This document shows positions 25,377 to 46,000 of a DNA stretch of 55,415 bases, piece by piece. Position 1 is the first letter of the stretch; the number at the start of each line of letters is the position of its first letter. Made by a program: the position numbers and the translations under genes. The stretch covers positions 12,094-67,508 of the forward strand of contig NZ_AUMR01000039.1 in the NCBI RefSeq assembly GCF_000430785.1. The letters are read 5' to 3'. Source of the DNA: Ectobacillus panaciterrae DSM 19096. GTDB lineage: Bacteria > Bacillota > Bacilli > Bacillales > Bacillaceae_G. Below the pieces are notes generated by a model. It was not told the origin of the DNA. It saw only the letters and a list, made by a program, of their open reading frames with translations, and did no database searches.

Positions 25377-25634
25377 TTATCTCTTGTTCGACAGAAAACC
25401 TTCTAAGGCCCCAATGGCCCCTTGCTCATCGATTCCGTTTGCAATTAGTGTAATTTCTTCTCCCTTTCTAATGGCCATGGCCATAACTCCCATAATACTT
25501 TTAGCGACTACCGATCTTCCGTTTTTAATGATGGTTATCTCGCTGTTAAAAGATGATGCTTTTTGTACAAATTCAGTAGCAATTCGAGCCTGAAGACCAT
25601 GTTGAAGATGAACGATAAGCTTTTTTTCCTTCAT
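25377..25634 (-). CDS. crh: Crh-like HPr paralogue (catabolite repression co-regulator)
   Basis: 85 residues of the HPr fold. The phosphotransfer histidine at position 15 is replaced by glutamine (GLQARIAT), as in Crh, so it should not take part in PTS sugar transport. The regulatory serine is kept at position 46 (AKSIMGVMAMA), the site of HPr kinase phosphorylation; P-Ser-Crh binds CcpA as co-repressor. Position 18 is Ile rather than the usual Pro. In B. subtilis crh sits in the yvcI-crh operon; here it is alone beside a CcpA-type carrier gene. The RBS (AAAGGGAGAGTGACTG) is good. Confidence 0.85.
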   Translation of the reverse strand: MKEKKLIVHLQHGLQARIATEFVQKASSFNSEITIIKNGRSVVAKSIMGVMAMAIRKGEEITLIANGIDEQGAIGALEGFLSNKR

Positions 25635-27960: not shown

Positions 27961-28120
27961 AAATTTAAATAAGTAAGTGGCGTTCGAAGGGCAGACCTTT
28001 ACAGATAGTATAAACACCTTATAAAATTAAGAATTTTTATGTTCGTAAAGAATGCTTGTGCAATTCAAATATCTTCGCTTTTCTTCTCTGCACCTAATAC
28101 TTTTGTATTTCTCTACTATT

Positions 28121-28200
28121 AGATGGCAAAGGTATGACAAAATTCTCTACTTTAACACCAAAATAAAAAAGGACGGTATAACCGTCCCGCTAAATCCATT
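28121..28200. repeat. Orphan SASP-terminator module, copy 4
   Basis: AGATGGCAAAGGTATGACAAAATTCTC followed by hairpin GGACGGT / ACCGTCC and CGCTAAATCCATTGTATT, as at the 3' end of SASP copy 1. No SASP gene follows; the next gene is the SDR of the biosynthetic operon, so the module now acts as that operon's terminator. Confidence 0.75.
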
Positions 28201-28231
28201 GTATTTTTTTCCATGGCAAAATAATTTACTA

Positions 28232-29185
28232 TCACCTAAAACTCCCCACCGACCTATTTTGAAACCATTGAAGAGTTTTTTGAATTGCCTCCTCGTGAGA
28301 AGTGAACGTGAATGACGGAAATAAGCCCCTGAATCTCTCACCGTCGAGGACTAATGGTTCTTCAAATTCGTACATTAGCTCTATTAGTTCACGTGCTTCA
28401 GGGCTGCCAATTCCAACTAACCTTAAGAGCCCCTTTCCTATTTTTCCATAGTTAGCTCGCTCCCCTGAAGCTCTGTATACCATCTTCATGAACTGCTCCC
28501 CTGTAACCGGATTAGGCCCTGAAACATGCCATGTTTTACCGTAAGCTCGTTCTTCTTCCCCTAATTGAATACAAGCTTGGGCGGCGTCATCAATATATAC
28601 AAGTGAATGAGGCATATCCAATCTTCCCGGCCATAGTGCTTTCTTTCCAGATAGCGCTGCATGAAAAATCGGACCAAATAACTTATTTGTCACGTTAGGT
28701 CCATAATAATCTGGAAAACGGGGTATAACGACTTGAACCGCTCCCTCTCGATGTGCGTTCATCAAACGCGATTCTAACTGATTACGTAGCTCACCTTTAC
28801 GACTTTTCGCCGCTAACGGGTGGGTTTCTACGGCTGGAATTGTTTGTAGTGGACCATAGCCGTATACATTTCCCGGAAAGACTACACAAGCATTAGTGAG
28901 CATTGCACCAGCTAGGATATTTTCAGTAACAACGGGCATTACTTCTGCCCATCTGTGATAGGGAACATTGATACAATGGTATATGATTGAAGCCTCCCGA
29001 CAAGCTTCTATGACATCACGTTGATTCAATGCGTCTAGTTCGCATATTTCAACTGAATCCGGAAAGTTCTGCTTGATATTCTTTGCATTTCTAACTATAG
29101 CTCGAACTGTCTTGTTATCGGTAACTAATGCGCGAACAATAGCGGAGCCTAGCGCACCTGCAGCTCCAAAAACAATATGCGTCAT
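28232..29185 (-). CDS. NAD-dependent epimerase/dehydratase-like SDR (last gene of PKS operon)
   Basis: A 317-residue extended short-chain dehydrogenase. Cofactor motif GAAGALGSAIVRAL is at the N-terminus and FPGNVYGYG at the position usually holding the catalytic Ser/Thr. The canonical YxxxK is not seen: the aligned stretch reads HPLAAKSRKGELRNQLE. Other members with KGxxR at this place exist, but the active site is atypical. C-terminal IPRFPDYYGPNV and WHVSGPNPVTGEQF are family-like. The start ATG at 29185 follows AAGGAGGTTG. It is 111 bp downstream of the PKS on the same strand, so it probably reduces or otherwise tailors a keto group of the PKS product. An alternative role is sugar or alcohol dehydrogenation unrelated to the PKS. 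Confidence 0.8.
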   Translation of the reverse strand: MTHIVFGAAGALGSAIVRALVTDNKTVRAIVRNAKNIKQNFPDSVEICELDALNQRDVIEACREASIIYHCINVPYHRWAEVMPVVTENILAGAMLTNACVVFPGNVYGYGPLQTIPAVETHPLAAKSRKGELRNQLESRLMNAHREGAVQVVIPRFPDYYGPNVTNKLFGPIFHAALSGKKALWPGRLDMPHSLVYIDDAAQACIQLGEEERAYGKTWHVSGPNPVTGEQFMKMVYRASGERANYGKIGKGLLRLVGIGSPEARELIELMYEFEEPLVLDGERFRGLFPSFTFTSHEEAIQKTLQWFQNRSVGSFR

Positions 29186-29227
29186 GTTATAATTCAACCT
29201 CCTTGTCAAATAATCAACAAATCAATG

Positions 29228-29273
29228 TGTGGAGGCGGTGTGCTTTGATAACAGGAAGTACATCGCCCCCACA
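29228..29273 (-). other. Hairpin between the PKS and SDR genes
   Basis: Arms TGTGGAGGCGGTGT and ACATCGCCCCCACA pair over 14 positions with two non-Watson-Crick contacts and an 18-nt loop. There is no T run on the minus strand, so an mRNA-processing or partial-termination element inside the operon is more likely than a full terminator. Confidence 0.4.
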
Positions 29274-29295
29274 AGTTTAAGTAATAATTTCAATA

Positions 29296-32200
29296 TTAAA
29301 CCAGTTGACCTGTAAGGATATTGAGTTCTTTTGCTGTAACGTTTACGGCGAATTTGATCTGTTCTTCGGTGTGGTTAGACGTTACAAAGAAACGTAGTCT
29401 TGCAGCATGTTCTGGTACTGCAGGATATACAATCGGATAAACATTTATTCCCTGCTTAAGCAACGCTTCTGTAACCCTCAAACATTTTTCGGAATCTCCT
29501 AAAATGACAGGAATTACTGGTGTATTATCATGCAAACCTATGTCAAGACCATGTTCGCGAGCGAGTTTTGCAAATAAATTGGACATCTGGTTCAATTTGC
29601 TAATCCTTTCTGGTTCAGAGCAGATTACCCTTAAAGCGGCAAGAGCTGCAGCTGTATTGGCTGGTGTAATTCCAGCACTAAATATAAAACCAGGAGCGGT
29701 GTATTTTAGATACTGAATTAATTGTTTACTACCCGCAATATAGCCACCACAACTCGCAAACGACTTACTGATTGAACCCATTAGGATATCGACGTGGCTC
29801 GGGTCAATATCGAAATGTTCACAAATGCCTTTTCCAGTAGCGCCTAAAACGCCAATTGAGTGAGCCTCGTCAATAAATAATAGTGCTTTGTGTTTCGTTT
29901 TAACTTCAAGGAAGGCTAGTAATTCGGGAATATCACCGTCCATACTATAAATTCCCTCAATAATGATTAAGACCCTTTTATATTGACTTCGCAATTTATT
30001 CAGTAACTTATCCACACTCATCCAATCATTATGAGGAAATGGTCGTCTTTGAGCTCCAGACAAGATACAGCCCTGAATGATGCTATTGTGGCACAATTCG
30101 TCGTGTAGAATTAAGTCCCCAGGACCCACAATATGTCCGATAGTTGTGACATTCGTCGCATGCCCGGCGGAATAAACGATCGACGATTCTACGCCGATAA
30201 AATCCGCCAGTTCCTGCTCCAATTCATGATGTAAAGGTATTTCCCCTGACAGCAATCGACTGGCAGATACAGACGTTCCGTATCTCTCAATCGCATTTAT
30301 TGCTGCGCGAGAAACTATTGAGTCACCGGACAATCCCAAATAGTTGTAACTCGAAAAATTAATAACTTGTCGTTCATTCATAGTTATTACATCTTTATTA
30401 ACTCCATCACGTATAGCGAAATACGGATTTATTGACTCTGACATCTTTAGACGCTGTTCTAAATGAAGATACTCTGGGAAAAGTTCAATACGGTAGTTCT
30501 CTTCTGGGATTTTGTTGGCCGGTATTGGTGTCGATTCTTTTGATATATTGTCTGTTGCAGGCTCATCAATATGATTAGTGGCCTTTTGCACAGCGGCAAC
30601 CGTAGAATCATCGTCTAAAAGATCAATGATTCCCTTAATTGTAATTTCACCGATAAAATGCTCAAAATCATAGGTTACATGGGGGAACTTGGAAGCAAGA
30701 TCATTTCGCAATTGTACAAGCATTAACGAATCGAAACCAAGTTCGTTAACAAGGGATTGATCAAGATGTAGTTCTGATACAGGATATCCACTGATTTTAG
30801 AAATAATGTTTAACACCGATGTTATATTTTCATTTCCTTTACTACTTGGTTCTTGTGGAACTTTTAGCCTTATATAATTTGAAGTTGAAGGAAAGTTTTG
30901 TCTTTCTTCTAGCCTTGTTTCCTCGTGCACATTGTATGGGGTGGTTGAATTGATTGAGTTATTACGTTCCATCAACGCCTTACTCTGTTCAACTAAAACC
31001 TGGCTTTGATTTTTTAAAATAGCAATTAGATCACTCTGTATTGTATTCATGTTATCTGAAATAACCTCACTCTCTTCCTTATTGGAAACATTTGTTGATG
31101 TCCATAAGAATTCATTCGAGGATGAATGATTGATCTTGCCCATTAATGCCTTAGATGTGAACCAGTGACGAGTTTTATCGAATGGGTAAGTGGGTAATGG
31201 TATGCGAAACCGGCGTATGTCATTTGAATAAAAAGATTCCCAATTAATTTTCATCCCGAGTGTATATAACTTACCAAGTGTACTCAACACTACTTTCCAG
31301 TCATCAGCATTATGGTTTAGCGATGATAGCCATGCGCAGGAATCGTCATTTCTAATCTGCCTAGCCATATTGATCAACACTGGATTAGGGCCTAGTTCAA
31401 CAAAACATGTAATCCCCTGATTCATTAAGGTATGAACACCTGCCATAAAGTTTACTGGTTCGACAATATGCCGGGTCCAATACTCACTTCCCATAGAATC
31501 GTTGGAGCTTAGTATACGTCCATCTTGGTTAGATACTAGCGGAATCTTGGGGTTTCCAAACTGTATACTTTCAGCTGCTGCTTGAAACTTATCAAGGATT
31601 GGGTTCATTAGGTGCGAGTGAAATGCGTGTGATACATTTAATGGTTTACACGTGATACCCTCATTCTCCAACTCTCTGATGGCTTGTTCAATCAAATTAG
31701 CATTTCCCGAAATAACCACATTTGTTGGACCATTAATGGCTGCAATGGAAATTGAGTTTTGATACTGTCCGATCACACCGCTTACTTTCGTAATGTCAGC
31801 TCGCACGACCGCCATCATCCCGTTCCTTGGTAATGCTTGCATAAGGCGTCCGCGTTCTGCAATGAGCTTCAACCCATCCTCTAGACTATATACCCCGGAT
31901 ATACAAGCAGCTACATACTCCCCTACACTATGTCCCAAAACAGCGTCCGGCATTATCCCCCATGTCTTCCACATTTCAAACAAGGAATATTCGAGTGAAA
32001 ATAATGCTGGCTGTGAATACATTGTTTGATTTAACAAATCTTCATAATTGGAATCGAACAATAGGGACAGTAAGGATACTGGAAGTATATCTCTAAGGAT
32101 TTCATTGCATTTATCTAGTGCATGTCGGAAAGTCAATTGAGTATGATAAAGTTGACGTCCCATTGCATGATACTGAGATCCTTGCCCGGTAAAAAGAAAA

Positions 32201-34113
32201 GCTATCTTAGCTGGATGTTTAGAATCGACTTTACCGCACCTTAATCCGTCGACTGGTTTTCCAGATAGAAATTGACCAATCTGTTCCCTGAGATTCACCG
32301 TTGAATCAGCAACCACTGCCATTCGGTGGCTAAAATCTTCCCGCCCTACATTTGCGGTATAGCTGATATCAGACAAACAATACTTTGAGTTATCTAGTAA
32401 ATATTTGTTGTATCGACTGGCTAACTTCTGTAAGGCAACTTCATTACGTGCTGAAAGTGTAACAATATCAAAACTTGCCTTATCTTTTGTGTCACGTTCC
32501 TCTGTTTGGGTTGGTGCCTCTTCTAGAACAACGTGAGCATTCGTTCCACCGAAACCAAAGGAACTTACCCCCGCAAATCGGCGAATTTTTCCGGAAGGCC
32601 ATCGTTGGAGTGACGTAGGAATAAATAGTTTGCTGTCCGCCAATGAAATGTGTGGATTCAATTTTTCAAAATGTAAATGTGGCGGGATTTCTTCGTTTGT
32701 TAACGATAATACAACTTTGATTAGCCCGGCAATTCCTGCAGCGGCTTCCAAATGACCAATATTAGTCTTTACTGATCCAATAGCACATGGTTGATTTGTT
32801 GATCGTCCTTGTATTAGTACATTTTTGAGTGCTTCCATTTCAATTGGATCACCTAAAGGAGTTCCCGTTCCATGAGCCTCTACGTAACTTATTTTGGATG
32901 GCTCCACACCGGCATTCTTTAATGCTTGCTGAATTACAATTTCTTGAGATTTTCCATTGGGAGCAGTGATCCCATTACTCTTACCGTCTTGATTAACCGC
33001 AGATCCTCTAATAACAGAGAGTATAGTATCTCCATCTTTCAATGCATCAGATAAGCGTTTAAGGACCAGCACTCCGGCCCCTTCACCACGTACATATCCA
33101 TCAGCTTTATCATCAAACGTCTTACACCTGCCAACAGGAGACATCATACGAGCTTTAGAAAAGGAAACGGAGACTTCTGGGGATAGTATTACATTTGCCC
33201 CGCCAACGAGAGCTATATTGCACTCGCCATTTCGTAAGCTTTGGCATGATAAATGAACAGCAACTAATGACGACGAACAAGCAGTATCTACGGCAACACT
33301 CGGCCCTTTGAAATCAAAGAAATAAGATAGACGATTGGCAGCCATATTTGTAGCGTTGCCAATAGCCGTGTAAGCATCTACATCTGAAGAATTCGCTATT
33401 TGTAAACGCGAGTAATCATTTGTGCTGATTCCTATAAAAACACCAGTCAGGCTTTTGGCAAGTTCACTAGGAGAATACCCGGAATTTTCTATCGCCTCCC
33501 AAGCAACTTCTAATAAGATTCTCTGTTGAGGATCCATACAATCTGCTTCCCTGGGGGTTATATTAAAGAAACTGGCATCGAAACAATCAATGTCTTTAAT
33601 GAAACCGCCCCATTTCGTAGTCATTTTTCCAGGGGCATCCAAATCTTTATCATAGAAAACTTCGTTGTCCCAACGATCCCGAGGAATTTCTGAAATCGCA
33701 TCAATTCCTTTTTTGAGGAGATTCCAAAACTCCGTTTCATTACTAGCACCCGGAAAACGGGACGCTAATCCGACAATAGCTATCGGTTCCTCTGATGAGG
33801 CAGCACTGAAAGCATTTGTAAACTGCTTATGCGAATTTTCCACAAGATACCGAGACAAGGATTCAATAGTTGGATAATCCCACACGATTGTAGGAGAGAG
33901 TTTTTGATCAAGCCATTCACTTAAATCACCGGACAGAACGACAGCTTCAGCGGAATCCAACCCGAAGTTTACAAAAGGTTCCTCTAGATCAATTTCTTCT
34001 TTTAAAATCTCTAACCTAGTGGAGATCTCCGATATCAACCAATCACGAATAGCGTCTTCCGTAACTACTTTATCGTTTCTAACTTTCTCATCTGCGATTG
34101 TATGAAAGTTCAT
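29296..34113 (-). CDS. One-module PKS fused to alpha-oxoamine synthase (ACP-KS-AT-ACP-AOS)
   Basis: A 1605-residue enzyme. Domains: ACP1 about 20-95 (NFGLDSAEA, Ser54); KS about 108-530 (VDTACSSS with Cys278, EAHGTGTP His413, NIGHLEAA His453); AT about 630-930 (FTGQGSQ, GHSVGEY with Ser728, HAFH at 828-831, a malonyl-CoA signature); a Gln/Asn-rich linker; ACP2 about 1085-1165 (LGFDSLM, Ser1128); and a PLP-dependent alpha-oxoamine synthase about 1215-1605 (YNYLGLSG, DEAHSIGVLG, SISKSFA with Lys1449). There is no KR, DH, ER or TE domain. It should accept an acyl chain on ACP1, extend it once to a beta-ketoacyl thioester, and release it by decarboxylative condensation with an amino acid. The ATG at 34113 overlaps the ligase stop (TAATG) and has GGGGGGAAAG upstream, so it is translationally coupled. 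Confidence 0.92.
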   Translation of the reverse strand: MNFHTIADEKVRNDKVVTEDAIRDWLISEISTRLEILKEEIDLEEPFVNFGLDSAEAVVLSGDLSEWLDQKLSPTIVWDYPTIESLSRYLVENSHKQFTNAFSAASSEEPIAIVGLASRFPGASNETEFWNLLKKGIDAISEIPRDRWDNEVFYDKDLDAPGKMTTKWGGFIKDIDCFDASFFNITPREADCMDPQQRILLEVAWEAIENSGYSPSELAKSLTGVFIGISTNDYSRLQIANSSDVDAYTAIGNATNMAANRLSYFFDFKGPSVAVDTACSSSLVAVHLSCQSLRNGECNIALVGGANVILSPEVSVSFSKARMMSPVGRCKTFDDKADGYVRGEGAGVLVLKRLSDALKDGDTILSVIRGSAVNQDGKSNGITAPNGKSQEIVIQQALKNAGVEPSKISYVEAHGTGTPLGDPIEMEALKNVLIQGRSTNQPCAIGSVKTNIGHLEAAAGIAGLIKVVLSLTNEEIPPHLHFEKLNPHISLADSKLFIPTSLQRWPSGKIRRFAGVSSFGFGGTNAHVVLEEAPTQTEERDTKDKASFDIVTLSARNEVALQKLASRYNKYLLDNSKYCLSDISYTANVGREDFSHRMAVVADSTVNLREQIGQFLSGKPVDGLRCGKVDSKHPAKIAFLFTGQGSQYHAMGRQLYHTQLTFRHALDKCNEILRDILPVSLLSLLFDSNYEDLLNQTMYSQPALFSLEYSLFEMWKTWGIMPDAVLGHSVGEYVAACISGVYSLEDGLKLIAERGRLMQALPRNGMMAVVRADITKVSGVIGQYQNSISIAAINGPTNVVISGNANLIEQAIRELENEGITCKPLNVSHAFHSHLMNPILDKFQAAAESIQFGNPKIPLVSNQDGRILSSNDSMGSEYWTRHIVEPVNFMAGVHTLMNQGITCFVELGPNPVLINMARQIRNDDSCAWLSSLNHNADDWKVVLSTLGKLYTLGMKINWESFYSNDIRRFRIPLPTYPFDKTRHWFTSKALMGKINHSSSNEFLWTSTNVSNKEESEVISDNMNTIQSDLIAILKNQSQVLVEQSKALMERNNSINSTTPYNVHEETRLEERQNFPSTSNYIRLKVPQEPSSKGNENITSVLNIISKISGYPVSELHLDQSLVNELGFDSLMLVQLRNDLASKFPHVTYDFEHFIGEITIKGIIDLLDDDSTVAAVQKATNHIDEPATDNISKESTPIPANKIPEENYRIELFPEYLHLEQRLKMSESINPYFAIRDGVNKDVITMNERQVINFSSYNYLGLSGDSIVSRAAINAIERYGTSVSASRLLSGEIPLHHELEQELADFIGVESSIVYSAGHATNVTTIGHIVGPGDLILHDELCHNSIIQGCILSGAQRRPFPHNDWMSVDKLLNKLRSQYKRVLIIIEGIYSMDGDIPELLAFLEVKTKHKALLFIDEAHSIGVLGATGKGICEHFDIDPSHVDILMGSISKSFASCGGYIAGSKQLIQYLKYTAPGFIFSAGITPANTAAALAALRVICSEPERISKLNQMSNLFAKLAREHGLDIGLHDNTPVIPVILGDSEKCLRVTEALLKQGINVYPIVYPAVPEHAARLRFFVTSNHTEEQIKFAVNVTAKELNILTGQLV

Positions 34114-35882
34114 TAACTTTCCCCCCAGATTTCTAGAGTCTCTGATAAATAGTCTATTCGACAAGCACTGCGTTGAATTTTCCCACTAGAGGTTTTAGGT
34201 ATAGAACCGGTTTTAATAAAAAGAACCTTATATACTTGGAGGGAATGTTCATCAGCTATCGCTCGACGGATTACGCTAACAATTTCCCGAAGCATTTTTT
34301 GTTCCTCATCACTTTTTTGTGTATCTGAAGAATTTTGATTTCGCGGGCGGTATCGACGCTCTAACTCAGCAACGATAATAAGACGTTCTTGTTCATTTGT
34401 GTCTATTGTAAATGCGGCGCTACACCCCGGTCGGATGGCAGGATGACTATTTTCCACAGTTAATTCAATATCTTGAGGATAATAATTTCTCCCACGAATG
34501 ATAATGAGATCCTTGATTCTGCCCGTTACGAACAATTCGTTAGATTCTGTCATATAACCTAAGTCTCCCGTACGAAGATAAAACTCCTCACCAGCATCAC
34601 TCAAACGTGCCTGGAATACTGAATCAGTTGCCTCAGGATTATTCCAATATCCACTCGCTACACTGGCACCATTAATCCAAATCTCGCCGATCATATTCGA
34701 TGAACATACTACACCTGTTTCTGGGTTTACAATTTTCACAGTATGATCCACACCACTTGTGCCGCAATTAACGATCTTAACAGCGCTATCATCTTCATTA
34801 CTTATCGGTAATGCATTTCCTTGTTCCAGTGCTCTTCGATCCAACAAATCGACCGATACATCCTTAGACTTTAGTCCCCCGGTGACGAACAGCGCTGACT
34901 CAGCCAGACCATAGCAGGGATAAAAACTTTCTCTTCGAAAACCACAACATTCAAAACTCTTGCTAAAACGGTCCATAGTTTCAAATCGGATAGGCTCCGC
35001 TCCGTTAAAGGCTAAACCCCACGTACGCAAATCTAAGGACTGTTTCAATTCCGGACCAATTTTTCTAACACATAAATCGTATGCAAAATTTGGCCCTCCA
35101 CTTATTGTAGCTTTGTACTCATGGATCGTTTGTAACCAGCGAATTGGACGCTGAAGAAAATCTAGCGGTGACATAAGAACACAATGGGCACCTGAGTAAA
35201 TAGTTGCCAGTACGTTCCCTATAAGACCCATGTCATGGTAAAGCGGCAGCCATCCAACAATTACAGAATCAGAAGTGATTTCAAACGCATTTTGGATAAG
35301 TTGCTCATTACTAAGAATATTTTTATGTGTTACCATCACGCCTTTGGGGTTACCCGTTGAACCAGAGGTGTACTGCAGAAAGGCGACATAATCTTCTCTA
35401 ACATTAGGGTTCATCCAACTATTTGAAAGATTAGGGTCAATAGCATCTGTATAAATCCAATTATGTTCCCTAATCGGAAAATCATTTATAAAATTTTTAA
35501 TATTAAAATAAATATCGGAAGTCGTTAAGGCAATGGATGGACTTGAATTCTCAAAAATAGATCGCAAACGTAGCGCATGACGACTTTGCCCCGGAGGATA
35601 CACAGGAACAGCGATCACCCCAGCATATAAGCACCCGAAAAACGCCTTTATATAATCCAATCCCGAATGAAACATTAGAATTGCCCGTTCCCCTTTAATG
35701 GCCGTTCCTTGGATAGCCGATGCGATTGCTTTTGCACTACGATCTAACTCCGCAAAAGTGAGAAATGATTGTGTATTTTTATCAAAATCCAAAAACGTAA
35801 AAACCGTTCTTTCCCCAAGTTCCTCCGCTTTATGACGCAACAATGAAACTAGTGAAGATGAATTTGTATACGTATCAATCAC
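34113..35882 (-). CDS. Fatty-acyl-AMP ligase (FAAL), PKS starter loader
   Basis: A 589-residue stand-alone adenylating enzyme of the FAAL/acyl-CoA-synthetase superfamily. It shows the AMP-binding P-loop YTSGSTGNPKGVMVTH at 171-186, GWLPLYHDMGLIG, CYGLAESALFVTGG, YLRTGDLGY, and the C-terminal lysine region KTSSGKIQRSACR. The FAAL flavour (PVYPPGQ and the LYHDMGLIG core) indicates transfer of acyl-adenylate to an ACP rather than to CoA. Its stop codon overlaps the PKS start, so it most likely loads the first ACP of that protein. Chain length is not readable. The start is GTG at 35882 behind AGAGGGTGG. Confidence 0.9.
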   Translation of the reverse strand: MIDTYTNSSSLVSLLRHKAEELGERTVFTFLDFDKNTQSFLTFAELDRSAKAIASAIQGTAIKGERAILMFHSGLDYIKAFFGCLYAGVIAVPVYPPGQSRHALRLRSIFENSSPSIALTTSDIYFNIKNFINDFPIREHNWIYTDAIDPNLSNSWMNPNVREDYVAFLQYTSGSTGNPKGVMVTHKNILSNEQLIQNAFEITSDSVIVGWLPLYHDMGLIGNVLATIYSGAHCVLMSPLDFLQRPIRWLQTIHEYKATISGGPNFAYDLCVRKIGPELKQSLDLRTWGLAFNGAEPIRFETMDRFSKSFECCGFRRESFYPCYGLAESALFVTGGLKSKDVSVDLLDRRALEQGNALPISNEDDSAVKIVNCGTSGVDHTVKIVNPETGVVCSSNMIGEIWINGASVASGYWNNPEATDSVFQARLSDAGEEFYLRTGDLGYMTESNELFVTGRIKDLIIIRGRNYYPQDIELTVENSHPAIRPGCSAAFTIDTNEQERLIIVAELERRYRPRNQNSSDTQKSDEEQKMLREIVSVIRRAIADEHSLQVYKVLFIKTGSIPKTSSGKIQRSACRIDYLSETLEIWGES

Positions 35883-35926
35883 TTGACCACCCTCTGCCCC
35901 AGAATTATAAATTTATTTTTGAATAG

Positions 35927-36709
35927 TTATTTTCCAAAATGAAAACAGCGCTGTTCTTTAATAGAGTCTCTGCATAAGCAATTTGCTTCAAACCACTGAA
36001 ACTTAAGTGGATAGCAGTCGCTGTTATGAACGCAAATTGAGGTCATATAATTCATGTCTATACTTGTAGAAAAGGTGAAGCATTCCTCATAGTTGTAAAT
36101 ATTCCTGCCATTGTTTAATGGATGCATGGTTAAAACATCTTGATTATCTAGGAATTCAGCTAATCCACTGCCAACGGCTTTGACGTACGATTCAATTTGC
36201 GTCCAAATCCGAAAAAAAGCCTTTATTCTTTCCATTCCCTTTTCGGAAAAATACTCTTGCTGCTGCTTGAGTGTAAAAACTTGTTTAGCAATTCTTGTGG
36301 CATTAGTAATTTCGCGAATCGATTCCAGATCAACGCCAATATCCCGTTTCACACAAACAGCGTATAAGGCTAACCCTTTCGAATGCGACAAATTAAATTT
36401 AATATCTTGATTGGGACATGCTAACGTAGGCTTACCGTATTGTCCGTTATCAAATTTTAATTGATCCGGCTGTGCCCTTAAGTATAGGGCTAAAATCCTT
36501 CGCAGTATTCCACGGCAAACAATGAAACGTGATCGATCCTTTTCTAAATAAAAGTTACTTGCTCTACACCACTCATCTCTTGATAATTCACCCGATAACA
36601 ACCGAACCACCGATGGATGACAGTCAAGTTTAGCTCGCCATACATGGATTTCCCCACTTGGCAAAATCAGGATGCCAGTAGGTTCCTTCCAGTGGATCAA
36701 TTCACCCAT
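35927..36709 (-). CDS. Sfp-type 4'-phosphopantetheinyl transferase
   Basis: A 260-residue PPTase that should convert the two ACPs of the PKS to holo form with CoA. Motifs: NGQYGKPTL, FNLSHSKGLALYAV, the Mg-binding IGVDLE, and FFRIWTQIESYVKAVGSGL. In the last motif the first lysine of the usual WxxKE is Ile (WTQIE), while the Glu and the later Lys (YVKA) are kept; some active Sfp relatives vary here. It has RBS GGGAAGGGGAAG and lies 18 bp after the thioesterase and 45 bp before the ligase. A cluster-dedicated PPTase suggests the operon functions as a portable unit. Confidence 0.9.
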   Translation of the reverse strand: MGELIHWKEPTGILILPSGEIHVWRAKLDCHPSVVRLLSGELSRDEWCRASNFYLEKDRSRFIVCRGILRRILALYLRAQPDQLKFDNGQYGKPTLACPNQDIKFNLSHSKGLALYAVCVKRDIGVDLESIREITNATRIAKQVFTLKQQQEYFSEKGMERIKAFFRIWTQIESYVKAVGSGLAEFLDNQDVLTMHPLNNGRNIYNYEECFTFSTSIDMNYMTSICVHNSDCYPLKFQWFEANCLCRDSIKEQRCFHFGK

Positions 36710-36726
36710 AGTCTTCCCCTTCCCAA

Positions 36727-37473
36727 CTAATACGGGTTCTCAGCTAGTAGATTTGAAATATAGTTTAAGACTTGACCTTGATATGTGTTGATAAAAAAGT
36801 GGTTGCCTGGGAAAATACGCAAAGTAAAAATTGAATCTGTCTGTTTAGCCCAAGAAACCAGGGATTCATAGGTCGTACTATCATCATCTCGCCCCCCTAT
36901 AACAGAAATGGGACATGATAAAATCGGACCGGGTTCGTACTGATATTCCTCGATGACTTTAAGATCTGAACGTAAAATTGGCAAATAGGCTCGTAAAAAA
37001 CTTTCATTGCCAAGAATATCTTCAGAAGTACCTCCGAGTTCATGAAGCTTATTAACGAGTATCCGATCAGGCATCATATGGAGATTAGGGCGTTTTTGAA
37101 TTTCATGCGGTGCTTGTCGAGCTGAAACAATTAAATGTAAGGGCGCAATCCCATAGTGCTCCATCATCGTACGGGTTATTTCAAAACCTATTAAAGCACC
37201 CATACTGTGACCGAAAATTGCAAATGGTAAATCTAAATAGTCATCTATCCTCCTAAGTAAGCAATTAACAAGAGAATCAAATTGAACATCGTTGTCTTTC
37301 CCTCTTCTACCTGGGATCTCTACTGGAAAAACATCAATACTATCTGGCAAAAGTGCTGCCCAATTACGGAACACGGCAGAACTCCCCCCGGCATACGGGA
37401 AGCAAAATAAACGTAACCGCTTCGAATATGGTGATTTTGGTCGAGAAAAATGGGTGTTCACATTAGGCCTCAT
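36727..37473 (-). CDS. Type II thioesterase (alpha/beta hydrolase)
   Basis: A 248-residue editing thioesterase of the SrfAD/GrsT type, which removes stalled or wrong acyl groups from carrier proteins. It has LFCFPYAGGSSAVFRNW at the N-terminus, the nucleophile Ser90 in GHSMG, the acid in GGRDDDST and the histidine in FPGNHFFI. It is the first gene of the minus-strand operon. The PKS has no internal thioesterase, because the oxoamine synthase releases the product; this protein is therefore more likely a proofreader than the product-releasing enzyme. RBS AAGAGGGG lies about 13 nt before the ATG. Confidence 0.93.
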   Translation of the reverse strand: MRPNVNTHFSRPKSPYSKRLRLFCFPYAGGSSAVFRNWAALLPDSIDVFPVEIPGRRGKDNDVQFDSLVNCLLRRIDDYLDLPFAIFGHSMGALIGFEITRTMMEHYGIAPLHLIVSARQAPHEIQKRPNLHMMPDRILVNKLHELGGTSEDILGNESFLRAYLPILRSDLKVIEEYQYEPGPILSCPISVIGGRDDDSTTYESLVSWAKQTDSIFTLRIFPGNHFFINTYQGQVLNYISNLLAENPY

Positions 37474-37812
37474 TTTACTAAAAATCCCCTCTTACTTGAT
37501 CATGAAACCGAAAATCCGTAATCAGCCAAGCCCCCTTTCTTAGTTAGATTCCTCCTTAGAATAATGGTTTTCCGGGAGAGCCAGTAGACGGTTGCTGCTT
37601 GTCCTCTTTTTCATTTTCTGGTCTGTCTGCAGCTGACCCTGTATTCATCGTATCAATGTTATGTAAAACAGCGGTAAAATAATTGTGAATATTTATTATA
37701 TTCTGTCAAAAATACGTTAATCTATATTGTTGACATGAATGTTCGTAAATGATAAATTGAATTATTTTTCTCTCTTGCATTTTGAATAGCAGTTATTTTT
37801 CTTCATAAACAG
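37474..37812. promoter_or_regulatory. Upstream region of the PKS operon
   Basis: No confident gene. It must hold the operon promoter: on the minus strand a perfect -35 TTGACA is followed by AT-rich DNA near 37705-37680, but the -10 is uncertain. A 30-codon frame (MNTGSAADRPENEKEDKQQP, to about 37557) has no RBS and may be the tail of a lost gene. Confidence 0.35.
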
Positions 37813-40077: not shown

Positions 40078-43000
40078 TTACTCCATAGTACCAGAACACC
40101 GCAAACTTGCTTGAACTACTACCTGATGCACTTTACCGTCATCCACAAGTTGCAAGTACGAATGATTTCCAACTGCCTTACCGTCAACCATCCATGTTAA
40201 TGGAACTCCATGATCTTGTCCACAGTGAAACTCAATCGAATACGTTGTCTCGCCATATCTGTAGTCGATACTGAACGATTTCCATTCAGGCGGCACACAG
40301 GGTTGAATATATAGTTGATCTCCGCGGCGCTTGACGCCCAATACATACTCCAACCCTGCTTGGTACATCCAACCAGCAGCTCCTGTATACCATGACCAGC
40401 CAGCTTGACCTTGATGTGGATTTGCCGTATACACATCAGCCGACATCACATACGGTTCATTTGCATACGTCTGGACTTCACGGGAAGTTCGCGTGTGTGA
40501 GATTGGATTGAGCATGGAAAACAGCTCAAATGCCTTATCACGCCGCTCTAACATCGCCCAGGCGACAATCCCCCAAATGACACCGTGGGTATACTGTGCC
40601 CCGTTCTCTCGAATTCCGGGTGGATAGCCCTGGATATATCCTGGGCTCGGGCGAGTCTCATCAAACGCTTTTGTCAACAACCGCGCAAGGTTCAAATCTC
40701 GATCGACGAGCTCACGGTCAAACGAACGCATCGCCCGCGACTGCCGGTCGGCAGACGTCCCCTTCGAGATGACCGCCCACGACTGTGCGATGGCATCAAT
40801 TCGACACTCCTTGTGCTCAATCGACCCAATCCATGTTCCAGCGTCGGTGTACGCGCGGCGAAACCAACCGCCGTCCCAAGCATAATCGTTCAGGTGCTGC
40901 TCCAATTCGCGCGCGACCTGTTCAAACTGTTCGACCACATCGGGAGGAATGATACCATCCTCAAGTCTCGTAAACCGCTTCAGAATGTCTAACAAGAACC
41001 AGCCTAACCAGACGCTCTCACCATGTCCCTTTGCGCCGATACGACTCATCCCGTCATTCCAGTCGCCAATGCCCATAAGCGGAATGCCGTGTTCGCCGAA
41101 CTTCAGAGCATGGCGAATGGCTCGCAGGCAATGCTCCAACAGCGACCCCGTCTCGTCAGACACGACTGTATCTTCATACCGCTCCAATTCTCCCTCTTTC
41201 AGCACATCACTGTACAAGAATGGCACGTCCTCTTTAAGAATATCGAGATTGCCTGTCTGTTCTAGATAGCGTGATACGGCATACGGAAGCCACAGTAGAT
41301 CATCTGAAAAACGTGTGCGTATTCCTTTGTGTGTTTCTTCGTGCCACCAATGTTGGACATCGCCCTCCTGATACTGATGGGCAGCGTTAATTAGTATTTG
41401 CTTTCTGATAATAGACGGGTCCACATGTAAGAACGCAAGCGAGTCCTGCAATTGATCACGAAATCCAAATGCACCGCCAGCCTGATAAAACGCGGTTCGG
41501 GCCCACAATCGACAAGCCAGCGCTTGATACAAGAGCCAGCCGTTCAGCATCAAATCCATCGCACGGTCCGGTGTCTTCACCTGCACCTGTCCAAGGACGC
41601 GCTGCCAATACTGTGTCACGCTTGCAAGTGCATCTTCGTAGGCAGAAGGTTGACCATACTGTCGAACAAGCGAGTGTACCTCCTGCTTCGACGCAGCACA
41701 GCCAAGCAAAATGGTGACCGTTATCTCACTTTTTGCAGGAAGTTCGACAACAGTTTGAACCGCCCCGCATGAATTAGAAAATGTGCCTGTTTGCATAGAC
41801 AGTTTTTCTTCTAAAAGTGCTGCCGGACACTCTAGTGTACCACCACGACCGATAAACTCTGTACGATCTCCGGTCCAAGAATACGGTTGAAACGGTGTTT
41901 TCGTCATATGCGGCAGTGCGATGTGCATAAAGCCGACCGCATCACGAAATGTCTCTTGGTACGTGTTGCGGGCAAGCAACGTGCTATGCTCCTTATCCCA
42001 TTCGGTAATGATGAAGGGTGCCTGCGCTTCTCGCATAACTCCAAGAACCCACTCAGCATAATACGTAATGGAAATCCTCTTTATAGCTTCGCTAGTATTG
42101 CATAGTTGAAGCCGGATGAGTTTCAGCGGATCTTTTAATGGAACTGTTGTCTCCATCGTGTGCACCACGTCTCCATCCAGTTGTTCAATCCGACTATATC
42201 CCCATCCATGTGTGACCTTGTACGTTCGCTCGCCACCTGCGGGTTTGGGGGCAGCCGACCAGACTTGATTAGTGTCGAGGTCGCGCAAGTAGAGGCACTC
42301 CCCAGGTTGGTCAAGAACTGGATCGTTCGTCCAGGGCGTGAGCTTACACTCCCGTGAGTTGCGCCACCAACTATAACCTGTTCCCAATTCTGTAAGTATG
42401 CAACCGAATCTTGGATTAGCGAGTACATTGCTCCACGGCTTCGGTAAGTACGATCCGCTTTGTACGTGAACTTGATACGCCCGACCGCCCTCGATGAAAC
42501 TGCCCCAACCATTGAAAAATTCACCTTCTGCGGGAATACTGGACGGTTTTTGATTCCGATGCATTTCTCGGGTTGGCACTGGCCGCCGCTGCAATGGCTG
42601 TAATTTGCCTTCGACGGCTCGCAATTGTGCACGCAAGCTTGGCCCTCCTGCCCGCAGTAAGACACGCGCAACCGCTATGAGGAGGGTTCGTTCATTCTCT
42701 GGCAATTGAGACGCCTTCAATCCCACAATTCGCTTCATCTGTCCAATCCCGCGCGCAGCGAGGTTCTCGCGCAAACGATTCATGAACTGGTCCTGGTAGC
42801 CGCCGACGGTCTCATCGAGTACCACAAGGTCGACTGCCAACCCAAGCGTACATAAGTACTGGTGCTGGCACGCTAACAGAATGACGAACGGTAAATCGGC
42901 CAGGTTGTTAACGGAAACCACAACAATCGGCGCGTCACCGCTAATTCCATGCGACCATAAGGCAGACTGACCTAAAGCATTGTGTGAGATCGCTTCCCGT

Positions 43001-46000
43001 CGCACGTGCGTGAGCGGCGGAGTAAAAAGGAGGCGTCCCGCCAAAAGATTTGCTTCCGAGGCTTGCATCGGCGTAAGGTGCAGATGTCGAAGATCGATTT
43101 GCGTGCGTACCCATGCTAAATGGAAGGTTCGATCCGCTTGCTTTGGCTCACGCAGGCGATGTACAATGTCAAGCGCCTGCTCGCGGCTTTCTGCGACCCC
43201 TGTCACGATATACACCGTGGCGGACTCCTGCGGTGCCAATTGAATACAACGACGCATAATAAACGCCGGATCCACAACGGAACCAACCGACCCACGTAGG
43301 CGTGCGTATATTGCCTTTGGCGTTTGGAGTGAATAACCACGGCCAATAAATTCAGCCCGATCTGTCTCGAATTCGTAATCACCTGTCTCACGCCCATCGA
43401 CATAGACGGTGTGAACTGCCCATGTCTCCTGCTCATCATCCTCGCGCGGACGCCGCTTCGCCAACAAACATTGTGCCTTTGCGTCATGGCTCGTTTCTAT
43501 GAATAACTTGCTGAAAGCTGGATGTGCACTGTCTGCGGATTGGCTTGCCAATGCCAACTCCAGGAACGACGTCACTTCCAGCGTACGATCTTCGCTGCTG
43601 TTGTTAACCACTTGAAGGCGCCGCACCTCGGCGTCAACATCCGAAGAAATGGTCAATTCAAGCTTGGATGAAATGTCATCATAAGTCCCCTCATAGGCTG
43701 TTTTATCGAGACGAAACAGAGCTCTCGTGTCCCAAGCCGTCTCACAAGGGAACCTGGTCGTGCTCCATGTCTTTTCCGAAGTGACGTCGTGAATGTAAAC
43801 AATTGCGCCCGACGTATCTGCGACCGGGTCTTCTCGCCACCTTGTGACTGCAAGTCCGTTCCATGTGAGCATACCAGTTCCATCGTTCGTGTTCACACTG
43901 GTCATGCGACCGTTTGACAACACGTTAACTTCCGGAACGGCTGTCGGTTCAGCAAACGTCCGTTCCGTATCGTCCGACTGGCTATCAAATTCCGGCACCT
44001 TCGCATGAAGCCCAATCGGTTCTTCAATCAGCGCCGCTTTTACTGGTACCCGTTCCTGTAGAAGTAAATCTGTTGCGCATACGCGTGGATCGGTATGGAA
44101 TCGCTTCACCATGATTTCATCCGCCAACAAATTAACAAGAGTTAGCATACTCATGCCTTGATGGTGAGCCATAAAACTCTGCACGACCTGGTAATGTTTA
44201 CCTTGCGGCAGGCGTACTGTTGTAAAATCAACAGCTTCATAAAAACCGTACTCGCCTTTCGCGCCATAGTCTTCAAATTTGCGCAGCGCTACGAGTCCAG
44301 CATCACCCGCATACGGCAGAGCCATGATGGTGGCATACGGTGCAACGACCAAATTCCGTTCCAGACCACGTTCAAGTCCAAGTCCGGGGACACCAAAAGC
44401 CCGATATTGATAGTTCAATTGATAGTCGAATGCATAATAACCGCTTTCTGAAATTCCAAATGGCAGTTGGTGTTTATCCGCATACATCCGCTGCCGGTGA
44501 ACGGCGCCTCGATAAGTGGATTCCCAGATCGTGTTTCGATACGTCCGCATAATAAGACTCGGCATCAAATACTCAAACATCGTGCCAGACCAAGATAACA
44601 GCGTCTTGCATTTATCAAAAATTGTCATTGTACGTCCCAGTGTAAACCAGTGAGAAGCCGGAATTTGGCCTAGAGCAATTGCAACAAAGCTTGCTTGTCT
44701 AGCTTCCGAAGCCAGCAAATCATAAAGAATGGTATCTTTTTGGTTTGTGTCGACGTGGTAGCCCAGACAGAACAGGCGCTCATCCGAGTTGTACAGCGAC
44801 TTGAAATTGGTCTGTTCAATGAGCTGGTCGATTTCTTCTATGATGTTCTCAATACGAGATCGGAAATCTACATCTCGCTGACTCCATTCAAGTAGTCCCT
44901 GCCGCACGACCATCAGGTACGCAACAAAGTTTCCAGAATCAACCGTGGAAACGTATCGAGGAAAAAGAGGCTTAGCTGAACATGTATCGTACCAGTTCAG
45001 CAGATGCCCATTCCATTTTTCCATGCTTGCGAGTGTTTTCATCGATGCTTCGATGCGTTTGGTCATCGTAAGCGTGTCGATGAAATCAAGGTCGCGTGCA
45101 GCAACGACACAAGATAAGTATAGCCCAATATTGGTCGGCGACGTGCGATGTGCAACGATCTCCTTTGGATGATACTGTACATTATCGGGCGGCAGCCACG
45201 ATTCGGTCTCTGTGACGTATCGCTCATAAAACGACCAGATTTGTAGCGCTAATTCCCTGAGTTCCGGACGAGCAGCATTCAACCACGTACGAGTATCTGT
45301 TCTTCGCGGACGGTTCAATTGCTGCATGACAGGTCGGGCCAGAAGCCAAATCACCAGAGCTGCAACACCAATACCGCGATCCAAAATCCCACCGGAAAGC
45401 CAAGCTAGTACGACAAATAGGGCAATCACGATGTAGCCGGCTGGCTCGTACATAAACACGCGTCCTTTTACGGAACTGCGATCCGTCATTGCAGATGTGA
45501 CCCACTCAAGTAACTTGCGCCGGCTTACAAACAGGCGGTAGAGCGTGCGCAGAATGGCGTCTAACGCAAGAACAGCCGCAAACGGCAGCATCATCAGTTG
45601 AACAGCACTCTGCATGAAACTCACAGCAATGGTACGATTGCTCCCACGGCCAACCACTCCTTGTGCGATAGCACGCAGAAACGGAAGAAAAATCGTTAGC
45701 AGTACAATTGTTTCCCACACCCATCCTCGACCAGGCAGCACGTGCAATCCGAGTATCGCAACCAATAAGAGGGCTGGCGCAAGTAGGCTCCGGCGCAAAT
45801 TATCAATTATTTGCCAACGGGTCAGCCCGCACAAATCAACTCGTTGGCTCTCGCCATGACGGTCTTTGCAGCTCGTGCCCAACCATTTGATAAGCTGCCA
45901 GTCCCCGCGAATCCATCGGTGAGCACGTCGCTCGTACGCATAAAATGTGCTTGGGTACGACTCGACTACTTCGATGTCGGATGTCAACCCAGTGCGCAGA

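Follow-up and report, generated by a model that had tools for sequence, protein, structure and literature searches.

A five-gene operon of Ectobacillus panaciterrae predicted to make a lipidic pyrrolinone or hydroxypyrrole

Overview

A compact operon of five genes, all on the minus strand, occupies positions 28232-37473 of the stretch of DNA analysed here (the window: 55,415 nucleotides of contig NZ_AUMR01000039.1 of Ectobacillus panaciterrae DSM 19096). According to the list of open reading frames (ORFs) and their Pfam matches, the genes encode, in order, a type II thioesterase (TEII), a phosphopantetheinyl transferase (PPTase), a fatty-acid-activating ligase (FAAL), a polyketide synthase (PKS) and a short-chain dehydrogenase/reductase (SDR)-fold protein. 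The PKS is arranged as acyl carrier protein (ACP)-ketosynthase (KS)-acyltransferase (AT)-ACP-alpha-oxoamine synthase (AOS). We consider it rather probable that these genes form a free-standing, RedL-like lipid-pyrrole pathway, which would lead to an alkyl-pyrrolinone or hydroxypyrrole with serine as the most likely amino acid. More tentatively, several families of Bacilli may share such undescribed lipidic hydroxypyrroles or pyrrolinones, made by a serine-using RedL-like FAAL-PKS-AOS line in which an SDR lacking the catalytic tyrosine would carry out new ring chemistry, in effect a "half" prodiginine pathway. Other loci and genomes are cited by our own L and G numbers.

Organization of the operon

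The features of the operon are as follows.

36727..37473, minus strand: TEII (PF00975, 3e-41)
35927..36709, minus strand: Sfp/HetI-type PPTase (PF01648, ACPS, 1.1e-13; HetI model, 6e-49)
34113..35882, minus strand: stand-alone FAAL (AMP-binding, 1.5e-62; FAAL_FadD32 model, 2e-135, below its cut-off)
29296..34113, minus strand: PKS, ACP-KS-AT-ACP-AOS (ORF listed as 29296-34164; likely start ATG 34113)
33844..34044, minus strand: ACP1 (residues 41-107 of the listed ORF; PF00550 and motif GLDS)
32665..33789, minus strand: KS (residues 126-500; PF00109, 2.8e-103, and PF02801; DTACSSS, EAHGTGT, NIGHLE)
31273..32199, minus strand: AT (residues 656-964; PF00698, 4.3e-56; GHSxG and HAFH)
30595..30867, minus strand: ACP2 (about residues 1100-1190, limits approximate; second PF00550 stretch; motif GFDSL at 1143)
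29329..30444, minus strand: AOS domain (residues 1241-1612; Aminotran_1_2, PF00155, 1.4e-49)
28232..29185, minus strand: SDR-fold NAD(P)-binding protein (ORF listed as 28232-29209; PF01370, Epimerase, 1.9e-16)
28170..28188, minus strand: terminator-like hairpin with a T-run, 44 bp past the SDR stop

This gene order and position had been proposed in an earlier note made from the sequence alone, and both were confirmed by the ORFs and the Pfam and NCBIfam models, although among the NCBIfam matches shown no model reached its curated cut-off for any of the five proteins. The FAAL protein matched FAAL-named models (2e-141 and 2e-135) far better than the best model named for a CoA ligase (4e-95), and its best match among solved structures was 7r7f (chain named "Polyketide synthase"; residues 10-588, 552 bits). 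TEII matched 6vap, RifR and 3qmw/3qmv (chains labelled "Thioesterase"), the last of which we take to be RedJ.

The longest open run in 28001-37600 was 1629 codons, versus at most 193 across 200 single-base shuffles, so the reading frame is not a product of chance. From TEII to the SDR gene the intergenic gaps are 17, 44, -1 and 110 bp, counted with ATG starts for the PKS and the SDR. The TTG listed as the PKS start (34164) lies inside the FAAL gene. An alternative ATG at 34113 shares one base with the FAAL stop (TAATG) and is preceded by the Shine-Dalgarno-like sequence GGGGGGAAAG; on the strength of this overlap and of GGGGGGAAAG, the PKS probably starts at ATG 34113 and comprises 1605 amino acids. 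Terminator-like hairpins were not above chance in the region (7 found, 8.4 expected), nor were promoter- and terminator-like sites in excess around the operon.

Domains and motifs of the polyketide synthase

Gene content, domain order and catalytic motifs could be read directly. A motif scan found the following residues and motifs of the PKS in place: the Cys/His/His set of the KS, GHSxG and HAFH of the AT, the serines of both ACPs and the lysine of the AOS that holds pyridoxal phosphate (PLP). The AT is presumably of the malonyl type, judging from GHSxG and HAFH. The AOS motifs comprise HNS at 1359, DEAHS at 1432, the PLP lysine within MGSISK (1462-1467), a pocket serine at 1302, and RLRFF. 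No ketoreductase (KR), dehydratase (DH) or enoylreductase (ER) domain was detected in the window PKS by Pfam at E<=0.001, which bears out the proposal of a single module that leaves the beta-keto group unreduced.

Release by an AOS, also proposed earlier, is upheld by PF00155 and by the NCBIfam models bioF (1.7e-106) and SPT (5e-104), which match this part of the PKS. Release by a class III aminotransferase, as in iturin-type synthases, was ruled out, since the PF00155 and AOS models match and PF00202 (the class III family) is absent.

Distribution in other genomes

The core of FAAL, ACP-KS-AT, ACP-AOS and SDR recurs in the same order in six genomes from three other families (G999, G950, G757, G1169, G1115 and G1217), the SDRs of which are 54, 46, 41, 41, 40 and 41% identical to that of the window. 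The PKS is a single ORF in the window and in G999, and is divided ahead of ACP2 in the other five. Pfam matches in 10 PKS ORFs of the six other loci, a set that covers everything but the L099 and L100 ACP-AOS ORFs, were to ACP, KS, AT, ACP and AOS; at E<=1e-5 KR, DH and ER were absent. The KS motifs, the GHSxG of the AT and the AOS lysine motif are kept in all seven loci; HAFH is exact in two and reads NAFH or RAFH in the remaining five. By tblastn a PPTase lies near the core in five of the six other loci, L100 being the exception, and one locus, that of G757, also has a TEII, with the gene order of the window. No bipyrrole gene was seen by Pfam among 10 neighbouring ORFs of L091-L093. Downstream of the operon, three of the four f48 genomes (L098 at 12373, L099 at 12398, and L100, minus strand) encode a small protein with a PYGYEPP motif; the exact motif is absent from L091, L092, L093 and L101.

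The genome samples overlap, and the counts are thus not to be summed. In the family of E. panaciterrae a PKS-fused AOS occurs in one of 19 genomes, that of the window, the other matches being ORFs of at most 425 amino acids with 31-39% identity. The AOS query gave 4 of 299 genomes in the order sample at E<=1e-78 (its own and three stand-alone AOSs) and 18 of 398 in the phylum sample at E<=1e-84 (its own, two ACP-AOS didomain proteins at 45%, and 15 others at 40-43%). At E<=1e-100 the ACP2-AOS query found matches in 4 of 398 genomes of the class sample (its own, G999, G950 and G757), in 5 of 276 from the order of G950 (G950, G1169, G1115, G1217 and G1105) and in 1 of 59 from the order of G999. 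An AOS-domain search of genome contigs returned four loci, none titled as actinobacterial.

The stand-alone AOSs of L044-L046 had no other operon protein within 19.5 kb (tblastn, 1e-6). Three Streptomyces loci (L068-L070; AOS identity 39.5-41.7%) were set aside as a different cluster, in which KS, dehydratase, ligase and ACP are annotated as genes of their own. ACP-AOS didomain proteins were also observed in small Bacillota genomes (L078, 8621-10207; L079, 9145-10722), where no ORF exceeds 785 amino acids in 19.5 kb; in L078 the gene directly upstream encodes a CDP-alcohol phosphotransferase.

Kinship and amino acid choice of the oxoamine synthase

Among solved structures, the window AOS matched serine palmitoyltransferase (SPT) first (3a2b/8guh, 257 bits; Serine palmitoyltransferase 2, 243 bits), with AONS and KBL lower (222 and 206 bits), and a profile of the seven operon AOSs again placed SPT entries on top. 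Two trees were built, of 33 and 36 rows, the second omitting L072, L087, L011 and L012 of the first; the row names SgaB, RkpG, KBL and SPT are labels that we assigned, among other things from annotation and context. The window domain falls into a clade (support 100/99) of PKS-linked AOSs, separate from the KBL and ALAS rows, together with SgaB-type sequences of Pseudomonas and Paraburkholderia, an RkpG-type sequence of Sinorhizobium, and sequences of Planktothrix and Streptomyces anthocyanicus. Branching within this clade is unsupported in both trees. A Bacteroides row that we labelled SPT lies outside it in both, and the KBL of the window's own family lies near that of B. velezensis.

In ThAOS, amino acid entry is controlled by residue V79, which corresponds to Val in KBL, to Ser in both SPT and AONS, and to Thr in ALAS (PMC11906848). 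At this position all seven operon AOSs have Ser, as do L035, L036 and L071, whereas L015, L017 and L084 have Val and L083 has Thr. The SgaB-type enzyme PfSgaB strongly prefers L-serine over alanine and glycine, and its SgaAB cluster yields sphinganines (PMC12134224); an SgaB-type protein encoded on a Pseudomonas plasmid shares 50% identity with the window AOS. Pocket serine and phylogeny together lean towards serine (or alanine) as the amino acid used, with glycine a less likely choice.

The atypical SDR

The SDR gene adjoins the PKS gene downstream in all seven loci, and all seven proteins keep the GxxGxxG nucleotide motif. None has YxxxK at the canonical site, the position of which we set by comparison with the GalE pattern; the aligned stretch reads approximately A-x-(S/T)-(R/K)-K-G-x-L-R-N. 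In four f48 SDRs a YGYGK lies about 20 residues upstream of that site, within a conserved VYGYG motif, and in one f48 SDR a YHHSK lies close to the N-terminus. Relatives that are not encoded in such an operon (Embleya, Deinococcus) belong to the same family, but the VYGYG/LRN form is missing in them. Three plasmid matches of the SDR (L041, L042 and L043) were not accompanied by the other four operon proteins (tblastn, 1e-8; L043 by annotation only). A single-sequence AlphaFold2 model of the SDR had a mean pLDDT of 34.8 and was not used.

A contrasting locus was found in G1105 (C78; L101), where tblastn detected FAAL, ACP and AOS, but not KS or AT, and where the neighbouring SDR carries YAASK. 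The tyrosine-less SDR thus appears to accompany the extra malonyl unit, which is what one would expect if it acts on a 1,3-diketone or the ring formed from it rather than on a ketosphinganine, although the contrast comes from this one locus. The FAAL-ACP-AOS frames of L101 (7684-11955) overlap and are broken (tblastn); a sphingoid route fed directly by the FAAL is possible there.

Predicted pathway and alternatives

From these genes we infer the substrates, the single extension, the ring closure, the role of the SDR and the product as follows. The PPTase would arm ACP1 and ACP2, and the FAAL would activate a free fatty acid and load it onto ACP1. The KS and the malonyl-type AT would then perform one two-carbon extension, giving a beta-ketoacyl-ACP2. 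At the AOS, a PLP-dependent decarboxylative condensation would join this chain to an amino acid and release it; serine is the most likely partner, glycine or alanine a possible one. The resulting alpha-amino-1,3-diketone, of a kind expected to cyclise, would close to a 5-alkyl-3-pyrrolinone/3-hydroxypyrrole, a closure already suggested in the earlier note and favoured by the present data. The atypical SDR may modify the five-membered ring, while TEII could edit misloaded ACPs or free the fatty acid. With serine, the predicted product is a 5-alkyl-2-hydroxymethyl-3-hydroxypyrrole; with glycine, a 4-keto-2-alkylpyrroline and then perhaps a 2-alkylpyrrole.

Several observations weigh against this RedL-like pathway. 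Its product is predicted from gene content, and the likeness to RedL/RedK is one of described function. In the AOS tree no supported group unites the seven operon AOSs, and in the plasmid search the closest AOS outside the operon class (Planktothrix, 56.6%) lies within a fully reducing PKS in a sphingoid-like context. The pocket serine is not diagnostic, as it occurs also in L032, L029 and L005, rows of the KBL/ALAS side. Among the combinations screened with ThAOS, V79S with glycine gave the highest turnover (PMC11906848), so the operon AOS may take glycine as well. The SDR scores below every NCBIfam cut-off, and its matches to solved structures are weak. Finally, the KS of G757 is split over two overlapping frames, so this copy may be broken or mis-sequenced.

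A strict copy of RedL/RedK, in which the AOS uses glycine to give a 4-keto-2-alkylpyrroline and the SDR reduces and dehydrates this to a 2-alkylpyrrole, seems unlikely. The functional set does equal that of the 2-undecylpyrrole branch as described (PMC12654105, PMC11188435, PMC8102152), and an SDR gene follows the PKS throughout. However, all seven AOSs have the pocket serine instead of the valine of KBL and cluster with SgaB-type enzymes, and no bipyrrole partner was seen in the genome, in which the other AOS-like ORFs are short and the other large KS proteins differ in domains.

Somewhat less likely still is a sphingoid-like lipid, formed by serine condensation and reduction of the linear amino-diketone to an amino-polyol, by analogy with the SgaAB sphinganines. 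The serine preference of PfSgaB (PMC12134224) and the shared clade and 50% identity of the AOS speak for it. Against it, the operon PKSs lack reductive domains, whereas the SgaAB-type loci L035 and L036 carry DH, ER and KR; the absence of a canonical YxxxK makes ordinary ketosphinganine reduction doubtful, while the SDR of the KS/AT-less L101 has YAASK; and, by general chemistry, the diketone should cyclise. The earlier suggestion of a sphingoid amino alcohol is thus weakened by the SDR and by the extra ketone that the module leaves.

That the cluster is decayed or silent and has no product is very improbable: its patchy occurrence (one of 19 family genomes) and the two-frame KS of G757 would fit, but the KS, AT, ACP and AOS motifs of the window are present, the long ORF is free of stops, and the core stays together in four families.

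If the RedL-like pathway is real, the lipid-pyrrole half of the prodiginine logic would exist as an independent pathway outside actinobacteria. Its ACP-dependent, fatty-acid-fed AOS could be useful in pyrrole making, and it would add an enzyme of dehydrogenase fold that lacks the customary catalytic tyrosine and may act on a pyrrolinone. As the window has KS/AT and L101 does not, the two loci would then allow a test of how a single malonyl extension influences ring formation.

Genomic surroundings

The flanks of the operon are unrelated to it, with a 2-hydroxycarboxylate carrier on one side and, on the other, a spore germination permease as well as a giant protein with a GH94 domain. The latter (40078-48162; 2694 amino acids, with GH94 and glucoamylase domains) we take to be cyclic beta-glucan synthase-like; its GC content is 49-53%, versus 33-41% over 16 kb towards the operon. 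The permease, like the nearness of the family's KBL to that of B. velezensis, would fit a spore-forming member of the Bacillota. An HPr-domain protein of 85 amino acids (25377-25634), which we assume to be Crh-like, has GLQAR at the HPr histidine site and lies near the 2-hydroxycarboxylate carrier and a LysR gene. Elsewhere in the genome, contig C11 (L074) encodes two-KS synthases with an adjoining PPTase, and C15 (L075) an AT / KS-ACP-thioester reductase / A-PCP cluster with an aminotransferase.

Comparison with known systems

In titles and abstracts of the open-licence PMC papers listed, a scope that makes this a weak negative, no FAAL-PKS-AOS operon of Bacilli was described. Iturin/mycosubtilin-type synthases have the order FAAL-ACP-KS-ACP-AMT. 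Like them, the operon encodes a Bacilli PKS begun by a FAAL; unlike them, its chain would be released by an AOS (PF00155, SPT/BioF models) and not by a class III aminotransferase.

A KS-AT-ACP-AOS protein of 1610 amino acids on an S. anthocyanicus plasmid (L034, 8389-13221) is, like the operon PKS, non-reducing and ends in an AOS (53.5% AOS identity). Unlike in the operon, no N-terminal ACP was found, its 25-kb locus has no FAAL or operon-type SDR, and an MMPL transporter adjoins it. The SgaAB loci of Pseudomonas and rkpA/rkpG-type loci share a PKS-linked AOS of the same clade, but have a reducing PKS (DH, ER and KR in L035 and L036) and a separate AOS gene, and a KDSR-like SDR is reported for Pseudomonas. 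Because the operon has neither reducing domains nor a YxxxK SDR, it is not an SgaAB cluster.

In the PigH/RedN pathway, KS and ACP-AOS are on separate proteins. As described for PigH/RedN and PigJ/RedX, which lead to 4-hydroxy-2,2'-bipyrrole-5-methanol, the AOS releases a beta-keto thioester with serine and a hydroxypyrrole closes, from a pyrrole-2-carboxyl starter (PMC11188435). The operon would resemble this system in release and closure and differ in its starter. The same logic with a fatty starter, as the earlier note had put it, holds in part: a serine-type substrate is favoured by the pocket and the phylogeny, but RedL with RedK (and RedJ) of Streptomyces is already started by a fatty acid, so the principle as such has a precedent. 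There is no indication of a whole prodiginine pathway, given that no second ACP-fused AOS was found in the window's genome (the other AOS-like ORFs, of 396, 400 and 411 amino acids, are too short for an ACP) and that its other large PKSs are of other types. Besides the window, KS matches comprised two FabF-size ORFs, the PKSs of C11 and C15, and five weak short ones, none of them PigJ-like. The 4-methoxy-2,2'-bipyrrole-5-carbaldehyde (MBC) branch of prodiginine synthesis was not found in this 189-contig draft in a search for its AOS and KS parts. Two ORFs (871 and 812 amino acids) match PF01326, the PigC/RedH-like N-terminus, and a RedH-like enzyme is possible among them.

The RedL-type features that are present are a FAAL gene coupled by TAATG to a PKS with an N-terminal ACP, and the order ACP-KS-AT-ACP-AOS without reductive domains. 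Plasmid searches with the AOS, the whole PKS and the SDR gave no RedL-like record among the matches listed. In S. coelicolor, RedJ frees dodecanoic acid, RedL, which has two ACPs and a ketosynthase and condenses the chain with glycine in a PLP-dependent reaction, forms 4-keto-2-undecylpyrroline from it, and RedK converts this to 2-undecylpyrrole (PMC12654105, PMC11188435); loading of RedL is worded as transfer from RedR in PMC11188435. The pyrroline has been reported from S. coelicolor cultures (PMC6261592), and a redL-redK fusion in Streptomyces MBK6 (PMC8102152) matches the adjacency of PKS and SDR in the seven operon loci. Going by published descriptions, the operon would thus work like RedL/RedK: a fatty acid enters, there are two ACPs, the KS extends the chain to a beta-ketoacyl thioester, release is decarboxylative and PLP-dependent, and an oxidoreductase and a thioesterase are dedicated to the pathway. 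It differs from RedL in its separate FAAL gene, in belonging to another phylum and in a pocket serine that suggests serine, not glycine, as the amino acid.

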